64,000 nucleotides of DNA from NCBI GenBank assembly GCA_903926385.1, contig CAIYIS010000059.1:186001-250000 (forward strand), given 5' to 3'. Both the position numbers and the translations under genes were made by a program. Shown piece after piece: positions 23,485 to 50,660 of this stretch (position 1 is the first letter of the stretch; every line of letters starts with the position of its first letter). Source of the stretch: an uncultured Bacteroidota bacterium. GTDB taxonomy: Bacteria > Bacteroidota > Bacteroidia > 2-12-FULL-35-15. The notes below the pieces were generated by a model. It did not search any database. It was not told where the DNA came from and saw only the letters and a list, made by a program, of their open reading frames with translations.

Positions 23485-23525
23485 CCACCAAAAGGTGGCA
23501 CTTTGGTTCCGCGAAGCTTTATGAT
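23485..23525 (+). repeat. Left inverted flank of array 1
   Basis: 41 bases that match the reverse complement of 23782-23822 at 34 of 41 positions by my hand alignment. The outer part holds its own small hairpin (CCACC-AAAA-GGTGG, 23485-23498). The inner part, GAAGCTTTATGAT, runs into the first repeat unit. Confidence 0.75.
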
Positions 23526-23808
23526 TGTATTGAAAAGTTTCGCGATTGCATCATAAAGTTTCGCAATTGCATCATAAAGTTTCACGATTGCATCATAAAG
23601 GTTCGTGATAGTATCATTAAGTTTCGCAATAGCATCACCTAAGTTTCGTGATTGAATCATTAAGTTTCGTGATTGTATCATTAAGTTTCACGATTGCATC
23701 ATAAAAGTTCACGATAGTATCATAAAGTTTCACAATAGTATCATAAAGGTTCGTGATGGTATCATTAAGTTTCACAATAGTATCATAAAGCTTCACGGAA
23801 CAATACTG
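23514..23808. repeat. Array 1: fourteen 21-bp tandem units
   Basis: Units begin at 23514, 23535, 23556, 23577, 23598, 23619, 23641, 23662, 23683, 23704, 23725, 23746, 23767 and 23788. Spacing is 21 bases every time except one step of 22 at 23619-23641. Each unit starts AAGTTTC (or a one-base variant), ends ATCAT plus A or T, and has a variable middle that changes mostly by transitions. On the minus strand the unit translates as a heptad of the form Y-D-A-I-V-K-L. The changes fall on first and second codon positions as often as on third, which argues against protein selection. Confidence 0.93.
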
Positions 23809-23989: not shown

Positions 23990-24200
23990 GTTTCACCAAA
24001 AAAGAAGGCAATGTCGACACAAAACATCCCCTTTTCATGTCGAAACATCCATGTTTCGTGTTGAAACGTCCTCGTTTCGTGTTGAAACATCCTCGTTTCG
24101 TGTTGAAACATCCTCGTTTCGTGTTGAAACGTCCTCGTTTCATGTCGAAACGTCCTCGTTTCGTGTCGAAACATCCATGTTTCGCGTCAACATTGCCTGC
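23990..24200. repeat. Array 2: about ten 21-bp units with a GTTTC/GAAAC dyad
   Basis: Units at 24032, 24053, 24074, 24095, 24116, 24137, 24158 and 24179 are clear; 23990 and 24011 are degenerate but in exact phase. A unit reads GTTTC, five bases (GTGTT type), GAAAC, then six bases (ATCCTC type). The GTTTC and GAAAC arms are constant from 24053 to 24158 while loop and spacer vary. The ends are inverted repeats: 24004-24027 matches the reverse complement of 24177-24200 at 20 of 24 positions. It shares GTTTCGTG with some array 1 units. There are no unique spacers, so it is not CRISPR. Confidence 0.92.
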
Positions 24201-46423: not shown

Positions 46424-47977
46424 ATGGAAAGAATTCAAATTTTGTGGGCGGACGATGAGATAGATTTATTGAAACCGCATTTATTATTTTTGCAGGACAA
46501 GGGTTACGACCTGTGTACGGCCACCAGCGGAGACGAAGCCCTCGAGCAAATTGATAAGCGCGATTTTGATGTGGTGCTGCTGGACGAAAACATGCCGGGC
46601 CTTTCGGGATTGGAAACGCTGAACAGGCTCAAAGCAAAGCGACCCAACCTGCCGGTGATTATGATTACCAAAAGCGAAGAAGAGTATTTGATGGAAGATG
46701 CCATTGGTTCTAAAATTTCGGATTACCTTATAAAGCCCGTTAATCCTAATCAAATATTACTTTCGCTAAAGAAAACATTAGACAACAAACGACTGATAAG
46801 CGAAAAAACTACTTCTAATTATCAACAGGAATTTCGTCAGATAGGAATGACCATGGGCGACAGACTGAACTGGGCCGAATGGTCGGAGGTGTACAAAAAA
46901 CTTGTTTACTGGGAGCTGGAGCTCGACAAGAGCAAGGACGAAAGCATGATGGAAATTCTGAAAGACCAAAAAGCAGAAGCCAATAAATTATTTTCGAAGT
47001 TTATTGAAAACAATTATCTGGGCTGGCTCAATGGCAAAGGCATGAATCCTCCTTTGTTTTCTCATACTTTATTCAGAGCAAAGGTAGCGCCATGGCTGGA
47101 TACACAAGATACTACTTTTATTATTCTGATTGACAACCTGCGTTACGACCAATGGAAAATGATTCAGCCTATAGTGGCAGAATATTTTAAAATAGAAAAC
47201 GAAGAAGTGTACAGCAGCATTTTGCCAAGTGTTACACAATACGCTCGTAATGCCTTTTTCGCGGGGTTGATGCCTTCTGAAATAGAAAAAAAATATCCGA
47301 ATTACTGGGTGAATGAAGAAGAGGATGAAAGTAAAAATAATTTTGAAGAACCGCTGCTTGCCGAGCAACTCAAGCGTTTGGGCAAGGATGTAAAAATGAG
47401 TTATAACAAAATAACTCAAAACGCGCAAGGCAAAAAGCTGGCCGATAATATTGCCAATTTGATGCAAAATAAACTAAATGTGATTGTCTATAATTTTGTG
47501 GATATGCTGTCGCATGCACGTACGGAGATGGAAGTAATTCGCGAATTGGCCAATGACGAAAAGGCTTACAGAAGCATTACTTTATCCTGGTTCGAAAACT
47601 CTCCATTGCTCGATATTCTGAAACAAGTGGCAGCACGCAAGTGCAAGGTTATCATCACCACCGACCATGGAACCATTAAAGTTACCGAGCCTTCCAAAAT
47701 AGTTGGCGATAAAAACCTGACCACAAATTTGCGTTACAAATTCGGGCGAGGCATGAATTATCAGGGCAAAGATGTTTTCGAAATTAAAAATCCTGCCGAA
47801 GGGTTTTTGCCAAAAGGTAATCTGAGTTCGTCTTATGTGTTTGTGAAAGGAGACAAGTTTTTTGCCTATCCAAACAACTTTAATTATTACGCAAGTTATT
47901 ACCGCAACACATTTCAGCATGGAGGTTTGTCTATGGAAGAAATGATAATTCCGGTAATCACCATGAGTTCTAAATAA
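46424..47977 (+). CDS. porX: Type IX secretion response regulator PorX (receiver-PglZ)
   Basis: 517 aa. A CheY-like receiver (residues 1-120, acidic pocket D10/D11, phospho-acceptor D54, conserved K104 in YLIKP) is followed by a helical linker and a PglZ domain of the alkaline-phosphatase superfamily (about 225-517). There the metal-site residues include D237 (LIDNLRYD), T271 (PSVTQYARN) and DHGT. This is the architecture of PorX, which with the kinase PorY controls type IX secretion genes; its PglZ domain is reported to hydrolyse oligonucleotides. porY is not adjacent. A 7-of-8 -7 element (TACTTTTA) lies at 46393. Confidence 0.94.
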   Translation: MERIQILWADDEIDLLKPHLLFLQDKGYDLCTATSGDEALEQIDKRDFDVVLLDENMPGLSGLETLNRLKAKRPNLPVIMITKSEEEYLMEDAIGSKISDYLIKPVNPNQILLSLKKTLDNKRLISEKTTSNYQQEFRQIGMTMGDRLNWAEWSEVYKKLVYWELELDKSKDESMMEILKDQKAEANKLFSKFIENNYLGWLNGKGMNPPLFSHTLFRAKVAPWLDTQDTTFIILIDNLRYDQWKMIQPIVAEYFKIENEEVYSSILPSVTQYARNAFFAGLMPSEIEKKYPNYWVNEEEDESKNNFEEPLLAEQLKRLGKDVKMSYNKITQNAQGKKLADNIANLMQNKLNVIVYNFVDMLSHARTEMEVIRELANDEKAYRSITLSWFENSPLLDILKQVAARKCKVIITTDHGTIKVTEPSKIVGDKNLTTNLRYKFGRGMNYQGKDVFEIKNPAEGFLPKGNLSSSYVFVKGDKFFAYPNNFNYYASYYRNTFQHGGLSMEEMIIPVITMSSK

Positions 47978-48612: not shown

Positions 48613-49545
48613 TTAAACAGGCACCAACATTACGGTTACGCTGTACAACACTTGTCCGGGCACAAAATTAACCACCGTAGTGTTTTGCACAAATCCGGGT
48701 TTATTAGTAATCAACGTTACCAAATCTGCAACTGTTGTTTTAAATTGTAACATACCTGCTGAGTTGGCCACACGAGTAGTGTCGCTTTCTGCCAAATTGG
48801 TAGAAGCCCCGTCAACAGGCGCAGTGGTGCCATCTTTTAGTATTTCAACATTAATGGTTACTTCCACATCGCTTATGTAAACTATACCCCACGGGCGGCA
48901 TTTGTCGCGTTTCGTTTCGGCCGGAAGCTCGTTGTAGAAGGTTTCTGTTTCGTCCCATATTTTTAAAATCACCGCATCGGCATCTTCTCTTAAATTAGTT
49001 CTCACCAGTAGTTTTGCTTTATAATCAGCCGTTTTCACTTCCTGGTCTATGTTTGCCGTATTAAAATTTCCAAAAGCTGTGCCCACTTCGGCAGCAGTAG
49101 GATTGGACATAGCTGCCCCTCCGGCAGCCACTCTCAGCGCATCTCCGTCAATAATTCTATTGCCCCACAAAGTAATATCTGCCTCCGAAACAATAGCAGG
49201 CAATGCATCGTTGGCCACATCGAGATAAAAGAAAGTTCGCTGTTCGGCTGTGTACACACCCCGTTCAACTCCCATATTAAAAACCATGATAAAATGACGA
49301 ATAAACATAGCTGCTGTTTCTTTAGTGCTTTCAACCAAAGCAGTGGCAGTGGTTTTGGCAAATTCGGCAATCTGAATATTGTCGTTTGCTCCTTTCCAAG
49401 CCAAGTACATGGCCAGCAACCTCACTTTGGTGGCGTTGGTAACTGTTATTTCGGCAGGTATCACCGTGCCCAATTCTTGTTTTGCTTTGTTTATTGCTAC
49501 AGTACGTTCTTCGTCTGCTCTTGGCAATCTTCTCGAAATTCCCAT
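48613..49545 (-). CDS. Unrecognised protein with helical N-terminal half and C-terminal beta domain
   Basis: 310 aa, no signal peptide. The N-terminal half (residues about 1-150) is rich in Ala and Thr and predicted helical. The C-terminal ~85 residues (from DVEVTINVEIL) look like a carboxypeptidase-regulatory-type beta-sandwich (DGTTAPVDGAS, then NKPGFVQNTTVVNFVPG). I have the impression that similar proteins beginning with a Gly/Ser-x-RLPRAD motif occur in other Bacteroidota, but I cannot name a family. Convergent with tsaE; array 3 lies upstream. Confidence 0.7.
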   Translation of the reverse strand: MGISRRLPRADEERTVAINKAKQELGTVIPAEITVTNATKVRLLAMYLAWKGANDNIQIAEFAKTTATALVESTKETAAMFIRHFIMVFNMGVERGVYTAEQRTFFYLDVANDALPAIVSEADITLWGNRIIDGDALRVAAGGAAMSNPTAAEVGTAFGNFNTANIDQEVKTADYKAKLLVRTNLREDADAVILKIWDETETFYNELPAETKRDKCRPWGIVYISDVEVTINVEILKDGTTAPVDGASTNLAESDTTRVANSAGMLQFKTTVADLVTLITNKPGFVQNTTVVNFVPGQVLYSVTVMLVPV

Positions 49546-50252
49546 TTTGATTTTGTTTTAGTGATTACTTGTTTTTTTACTTATAGTTTTAATTTAAATT
49601 ATTTGTTTACTTGAATTTTTATTCCTGCTTTTTTTCGTTTTTCTCTCTCTTATATTTCTTCCAATTCTATTTTTTATGACAAATGATGAATTGTTTTTTC
49701 TCCCCGTTTCTATCTTTTTCTGTCAATGAAGATTCAACTTCCGTCATTTTGTCAAAATTTATCTAATTTGCTGGTTACTAACATTGCCATTCGACCTATT
49801 TTTTTTCAGTCGTCAATCGGCAGACCTGCCAACACAACTATTTTTTTTCAGTCGCCAATCGGCAGAACTGACAACCCACCTATTTTTTTCCAGCCTTAAC
49901 TTGACAGACCTGTCAACCTACCTATTTTTTTTCAGAGGTAACCTGACAGACCTGTCAACCCACCTATTTTTTTTCAGAGGCAACTTGACAGACCTGTCAA
50001 CCCACCTATTTTTTTTCAGAGGTAACCTGACAGACCTGTCAACCTACCTATTTTTTTTCAGAGGTAACCTGACAGAACTGTCAACCCTCGACTGAAAAAA
50101 AATACATTACTTGTTCCTGCTGTCGAAAACTAAATTGACAGAAAAATAAAAGGCACTTATTGCTGTATCTATATTTTATTTATTCAAAGAGCTGTCGAAA
50201 CAAACTTCAACAGAAGTATTATTTCGGCAACAAAGGTAGGGAGCTGAAGTAC
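49546..50252. other. Intergenic region holding array 3
   Basis: 707 bases without a convincing gene. The central 310 bases are the 42-bp array. An open frame of 103 codons on the plus strand (49784-50095) is simply the array read in a frame that its period keeps open. The outer parts are A+T-rich, with no terminator or clear promoter. Confidence 0.65.
49796..50104. repeat. Array 3: seven 42-bp units with T-tract and internal dyad
   Basis: Units start at 49796, 49838, 49880, 49922, 49964, 50006 and 50048, exactly 42 bases apart. Each has CTA, a tract of seven or eight T, CAG, a variable stretch and a dyad: TGACAG-AC-CTGTCA in units 3-6 (one base pair longer in units 3 and 5) and GACAG-AA-CTGTC in unit 7. 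Unit 1 has GGCAG-AC-CTGCC, in which both arms changed together. Unit 2 has one mismatch. The array closes with CGACTGAAAAAAAATA (50089-50104), the exact inverse of TATTTTTTTTCAGTCG in unit 1 (49797-49812). Confidence 0.94.
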
Positions 50253-50660
50253 TCACAAAAGGAGGTTGGGGGTCGTATGTTGAAAACTTGCCTTTGTTTC
50301 GAATATAAAAACAGGGTCGATGAGGTTAAACTGATGGTCGAAATAATCGAGTGCTTTTGCCATTTGATATAAGGTAAAGTGATGGCTGTTTTCCTTTATG
50401 TTTTTAACTATTTTGGCCTGTTCGGCATTGAGGTGAAGAAAGGAAGAAACAAGGTGGAGTTTTTCTTTAAAATTTCGCTTAATAAAGTTTGGAAGTAAAT
50501 CATCGCAAAAAATATTATTCAAACCTCTCATGGTATTACATTGCAAAATAATTTTAGTCCATTTGTCTTCCGATTTAAACATGTTGATAATCGCATTTTC
50601 AGCGCCTGTAGCTTGATTCAGACCTGTTATTAAGTCTTTTATTCCATTTACACTTCTCAT
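50253..50660 (-). CDS. Unrecognised small protein
   Basis: 135 aa, predicted mostly helical, with no signal peptide, membrane segment or known motif. Amino-acid composition is ordinary (charged and hydrophobic residues mixed), which favours a real gene. There is no partner gene: array 3 is downstream and a divergent gene upstream. I cannot suggest a function. Confidence 0.45.
   Translation of the reverse strand: MRSVNGIKDLITGLNQATGAENAIINMFKSEDKWTKIILQCNTMRGLNNIFCDDLLPNFIKRNFKEKLHLVSSFLHLNAEQAKIVKNIKENSHHFTLYQMAKALDYFDHQFNLIDPVFIFETKASFQHTTPNLLL

Follow-up and report, generated by a model that had tools for sequence, protein, structure and literature searches.

An array of seven 42-bp tandem units lies upstream of an orphan gene in the window, i.e. 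the stretch of 64,000 nucleotides from an uncultured Bacteroidota bacterium analysed here. Such arrays are linked to this and to further orphan gene families, the linkage recurs in other genera, the repeat period is specific for the gene family, and a sister species has a different unit sequence at the orthologous site, where the flanking genes are conserved. Our tentative reading is that this array (array 3) acts in cis through its helically phased spacing, which would be read as DNA, perhaps by the encoded protein. We infer the DNA-level reading, together with the reader and the function, from the strict length of two or four helical turns, the free sequence, the family-specific period and the fixed upstream place, which point to DNA geometry being read in cis.

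Array 3 spans positions 49796-50089 and is assigned to the minus strand, that of the linked gene (48613-49545, minus strand, 310 aa, F310 family). All six unit-to-unit steps measure 42 bp (42, 42, 42, 42, 42, 42), and TRF, with a score limit of 40 or 50 depending on the scan, returned a period of 42 and 7.0 copies at 49794-50087. The T7-8 tracts at exact 42-bp steps described in the initial annotation are present in the seven units counted, unit 3 having T7 and the other six T8. Equally confirmed was the exact 16-base inverted repeat that closes the array; its left arm TATTTTTTTTCAGTCG (49797-49812, plus strand) lies within unit 1 and its right arm CGACTGAAAAAAAATA (50089-50104, minus strand) is the exact complement. 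With a lag-21 identity of 0.24 the array exhibits a 42-bp period without a 21-bp sub-period. An A-rich leader (49546-49795, minus strand) extends from the start codon to the array. On the distal side a promoter-like site TTTG-N17-TACCTTTG (50231-50259, minus strand) is predicted from the Bacteroidota consensus, followed by a gene for a small protein of 135 aa (50253-50660, minus strand) with equally placed relatives at three other loci. Plasmid and phage collections gave no match to array 3, and Rfam gave three matches, all under the gathering scores and judged as chance. The gene linkage of array 3 was absent from the initial annotation.

Within the genus F310 was found at 17 loci in 6 of 36 genomes, and a 42-bp array precedes the start in nine of the 15 loci with enough upstream DNA. 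Clustering of array neighbours revealed further orphan families with an upstream array, namely F230, F300 and F317. F230 was found in 8 of 36 genomes, at 7 to 19 copies per genome, and 25 of its 27 testable genus loci carry an array among the matches listed (30 of about 100). In other genera arrays were found, again among the matches listed, at 16 of 22 F230 loci and at 10 of 24 F310 loci, the latter including one congener (G032) that matches by the C-terminal domain only. Compared with other ORFs of at least 120 aa in the sample, an upstream array with a period of 21n within 500 bp accompanies 15/15 family genes versus 36/607, a count that is partly circular because all four families were first noticed beside sampled arrays; downstream arrays accompany 0/15 versus 41/607. 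After removal of the discovery loci, upstream arrays remain in the genus at 19/21 F230 and 6/12 F310 loci. One-sided binomial tests against 36/607 gave p = 9e-22 for 19/21, 3e-5 for 6/12, 1e-15 for 16/22 and 5e-7 for 10/24, values that overstate the significance since related loci are not fully independent. Five loci that are cut off (L168, L171, L186, L191, L209) are uncounted. F310 genes without an array, six of 15 in the genus and seven of nine in genus g4, count against the proposed cis reading; among the array-free loci are the short relatives, about 235 aa in length (g32, g33, g113, g129, g138). Plasmids gave no match for one F230 protein and phages none for the F310 protein, and IMG/VR scans with one F230 and the F310 protein gave none that was confirmed.

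The period follows the family. In the first set of arrays a lag-21 identity of at least 0.5 was reached by 30/30 F230/F300 arrays versus 0/11 F310/F317 arrays (p = 3e-10), and in other genera by 12/16 F230 versus 0/10 F310 arrays (p = 2e-4), the four F230 exceptions there showing identities of 0.36 to 0.48. Combined, a 21-bp period is present in 42 of 46 F230/F300 arrays and all 21 F310/F317 arrays are of 42 bp without a 21-bp sub-period, in tests that cover only loci with arrays. Array 3 falls on the 42-bp side. The period is not a matter of protein size alone, since F300 proteins equal F310 in length and have 21-bp arrays.

The genome-wide class of such arrays was sampled in 435 kb of the genome of the window (G000) and 420 kb of a congener (G026). 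In G000, 1905 self-matching 60-bp windows (at least 75%) were found at lag 21 and none at lags 10-20 and 22-30; with lag 21 full while the neighbouring lags are empty, the array periodicity is beyond chance. Among arrays of at least 80 bp, the period is 21 in 18/28 and 42 in 3/28 in G000, and 21 in 11/35 and 42 in 10/35 in G026. The unit sequence is private to nearly every array, and the period is what stays constant. As an exception to the 21n rule, G026 contains two related 41-bp arrays (L051 2536-2782, L052 12410-12577). Although the coding share of the sample is 83%, 37 of 43 arrays lie outside other ORFs. Many 21n arrays are near other genes, and most sampled arrays do not lie beside the known linked families. 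Sampling of 321 kb from 20 other congeners yielded one such array, and 340 kb from 20 other genera yielded two. We rejected a coding array because the sense frame is open in only 20 of 35 gene-linked arrays; since the other multiples of 3 (lags 15, 18, 24, 27 and 30) are empty in G000 as well, the keeping of a reading frame does not explain the period. Inverted repeats at the array ends reach at least the 95th percentile of the null in 22/43 arrays and at least the 99th in 14/43.

The replacement of unit sequences can be followed at the locus itself. In G026 the gene order is conserved as PglZ-type regulator, TsaE, 310-aa gene (70% identity to that of the window), array slot, small gene and PKD-type secreted protein, and the slot holds 2.1 copies of a different 42-bp unit. 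The regulator in the window (46424-47977) is a response-regulator receiver fused to a PglZ domain, and its relative stands beside TsaE and the 310-aa gene in G026. An array related in sequence to array 3 was found among the 36 genus genomes (own included) only in G026, with 71% identity and at another locus. A public exact-pattern scan of genome contigs gave five stretches, of which only that of G026 is tandem. In G034, a relative of the 135-aa small gene lies at a locus whose 42-bp array again differs in sequence and adjoins an F317 gene; as this gene belongs to a different family, it is not the ortholog of the 310-aa gene. The fast-changing small-protein gene lies distal to the array at four loci (50253-50660 in the window, L013 3445-3867, L008 1396-1782 and L197 459-842) that involve three different linked families. 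It is possibly a third component of the locus; as a general third part it was rejected, since only four distinct loci were found.

Two further arrays of the window are bracketed by arms. Array 1 (23523-23797) is a 21-bp repeat between the arms of an imperfect 46-bp inverted repeat. Its arm motif occurs seven times in G000 (at most 3 mismatches), always at the ends of 21-bp arrays, and the arms are present at five loci (array 1 and four others) whose enclosed units differ. At least two of the five, C68 and C16, lie upstream of F230 duplicates; mobility is unneeded at these, and a reading of the arms as a MITE was rejected. Array 2 (24022-24184) has a 21-bp unit and is likewise bracketed by arms. 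Its contig carries another copy with that unit (L036 13741-13840), and at a third locus, L091, the same arm accompanies a different unit.

The initial annotation ascribed to each unit of array 3 a dyad whose symmetry is preserved by a paired change and which would suit a dimeric DNA-binding protein better than an RNA hairpin. Intact 5-bp arms around a 2-bp centre are indeed present in units 1 and 3-7; unit 2, on which the annotation was silent, reads GGCAG-AA-CTGAC and is broken. The paired change between unit 1 and units 3-7 exists and amounts to one event. Tested as a mixed consensus against dinucleotide shuffles, the dyad of array 3 is within chance (p = 0.14). Symmetry-breaking substitutions had been set beforehand as the refutation of the dyad, and they predominate: dyad-bearing arrays show 232 one-sided versus 20 double changes, nine of the latter being compensatory with 4.6 expected, and in the sister array of G026 the dyad is broken in 8/8 units (judged by eye). 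A search of the 4.27-Mb genome for TGACAG-N2-CTGTCA as a specific operator gave five matches, all inside array 3, and a sequence-specific regulon was rejected because the exact dyad is confined to this array. Over 41 gene-linked arrays dyads are weakly enriched (sum 192 versus 164.4 ± 5.9).

As regards the expected net curvature, a computation with wedge parameters puts array 3 at the 99.8th percentile of genomic 294-bp windows, but its curvature is not distinguished from that of block-permuted units (p = 0.17; p = 0.57 for the G026 relative). Curvature is significant in only 3/43 arrays, and neither curvature nor a 10.5-bp composition signal gave anything convincing as a class-wide property. 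The reading as curved DNA bound by a dimeric protein that recognizes the TGACAG dyad is highly improbable, despite a dyad in 6/7 units and the high curvature percentile, with the sister array broken, the motif found only in array 3 and one-sided changes dominating. The initial reading from the sequence thereby fails for the most part. A specific TGACAG-N2-CTGTCA operator finds no support, while the helical phasing looks meaningful: a class-wide period of exactly 21 or 42 bp, i.e. two or four turns, fits a DNA-level reader better than RNA.

F310 consists of a long-helix bundle (about residues 1-219) and a TTR/CarboxypepD_reg-like domain (about 223-307). In the AlphaFold model (pLDDT 93.1) the bundle includes helices 58 and 53 residues long, and the beta domain at the C-terminus has structural matches to TTR/CnaB folds and to an N-terminal extension of SusC. 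For F230 a shorter bundle with an FnIII-like domain is predicted (pLDDT 89.9). For the proteins tried, nothing in Pfam, NCBIfam, PHROGs or PADLOC exceeded the cut-offs. Among the matches listed only the beta domains matched convincingly, with no structural relative of the helical domains. No DNA-binding fold was found among these matches, which counts against the cis reading.

In the proposed mechanism the locus would have two parts, an array of fixed period and free sequence upstream and the orphan F310 gene downstream. Units of two or four helical turns would bring all repeats to the same side of the helix, and a protein, either the linked gene's own product or a partner, could align along the array via the spacing and the weak local symmetry. 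A fixed unit sequence would not be needed by such a protein, and the gain or loss of whole units would preserve the phase. The complex of array and protein might then control the linked gene in cis, e.g. as a nucleoprotein barrier or switch that separates the gene from a distal promoter, in keeping with the promoter-like sites found beyond the array in the genus. Beyond this locus, it is possible, though doubtful, that an orphan superfamily with a helical bundle and a beta-sandwich forms a Bacteroidota module, each gene paired with a private array whose period is set by the family via DNA geometry.

Among the alternatives, a role at the RNA level is rather unlikely but survives best. In this case transcription would run through the array as part of a long 5' leader, and the repeat RNA, intact or cut into units, would bind or regulate the downstream protein, much like the antitoxin RNA repeats of type III toxin-antitoxin loci. 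In line with this, most genes have their own repeat, the repeat length tracks the protein family, and in the genus the likely order is promoter, tandem repeats, ORF: TAnnTTTG occurs in the 200 bp beyond the array on the gene's strand at 18/39 loci versus 4/39 on the other strand, compared to 5 sense versus 7 antisense between array and gene. The contrast is weaker for the complete two-part site, scanned at 9 of 10 matches (12 sense versus 8 antisense). These scans use the Bacteroidota promoter consensus and covered 37 loci in one case (without L201 and L164) and 39 in the other, L194 and L067 being left out of the leader, promoter, folding and terminator scans. A promoter distal to the array is likely in the genus, judging from these motif counts. 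In other genera, however, the distal signal is lacking (2 versus 1 of 26). The arrays fold better as RNA than column-permuted ones (mean z -2.1), but the antisense strand shows an equal bias (-1.9). A terminator-like hairpin in the gap between array and gene was found at just 1/39 loci in sense and 2/39 in antisense direction, no ToxN-like fold is present among the matches listed, and an exact 21n length would be unexpected for RNA. In the leaders of three F230 loci (L180, L190, L197) the stretch from array to start codon contains a common block near GGCTAATGACCAATACCC.

It is improbable that the array acts as a phase-neutral length tuner, a contingency locus in which copy number changes spacing and expression while 21n steps keep the phase of flanking sites. 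Copy numbers do span 2.1 to 13.7 and indels within arrays are rare (38 in 6802 bp). Additionally, two F230 loci from two species of one genus (L214, L230) carry a near-identical 21-bp unit in 5.5 and 8.5 copies, which suggests that a unit sequence lasts for short times while the copy number shifts. This explanation leaves a 42-bp family next to a 21-bp family unaccounted for. Similarly low is the probability that the arrays are a by-product of lineage-specific slippage or repair in two-turn steps, which would build intergenic arrays that the gene families tolerate. The position of most sampled arrays away from the known families, their scarcity in the 321-kb sample of 20 other congeners and the common bracketing inverted repeats (14/43 at or above the 99th percentile) agree with such an origin; a strong one-sided gene linkage that recurs in other genera with a family-specific period does not.

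Among known systems, type III toxin-antitoxin loci (ToxIN; PMC8860590) have locus-specific tandem repeats immediately ahead of a protein-coding gene and in its orientation. The loci described here share this arrangement, with repeats that are locus-specific as well. They differ in the missing terminator before the gene, in a unit sequence that is not conserved within the family, and in that no ToxN-like endoribonuclease family or fold was found among the matches listed. BOX- and MITE-like elements resemble the arrays in having inverted arms around a variable number of repeats, as with the exact 16-bp arms of array 3 and the recurrence of the array-1 arms at five G000 loci. In BOX, the repeat core is conserved, whereas in the present arrays it is the core that varies and the period that is kept. 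Plasmid centromeres of the ParR/parC type carry helically phased iterons upstream of the gene for the binding protein; in contrast, the genes linked here reach up to 19 copies per genome and lack a recognized DNA-binding fold. Array and linked gene point to a module that is undescribed in the literature searched, with preprints and most subscription papers outside its scope.

The closest class is that of constant-size, variable-sequence tandem repeats in Bacillus and other bacteria (Subirana and Messeguer 2021, PMC8161180). In the part of that article consulted, a non-coding class of 20-21 nt is plentiful in certain species but scarce elsewhere; its two helical turns are noted, and roles for nucleoid proteins and small RNA are proposed. 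Similar to these repeats, the arrays here keep their unit length across unrelated sequences, as seen from lag 21 in G000, and are largely non-coding. The 21-bp arrays of G000 agree with the unit lengths of 20-21 or 52 nt given there. Array 3, with 42 bp and no 21-bp sub-period, does not and is a variant of the class rather than a plain member. Neither a gene-family linkage nor a family-specific 21/42 rule is reported in the part consulted, and a keyword search of the main text gave no words beginning with "upstream" or "Bacteroid". Why such repeats keep their length and not their sequence is an open puzzle, which becomes concretely testable with a gene partner, a rule connecting period and family, and replication in several genera. 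If the DNA-geometry reading is true, recognition would proceed via spacing rather than sequence, which would be unusual, and if the family sets the period by DNA geometry, the sequence of an array would be free to change with its function kept.
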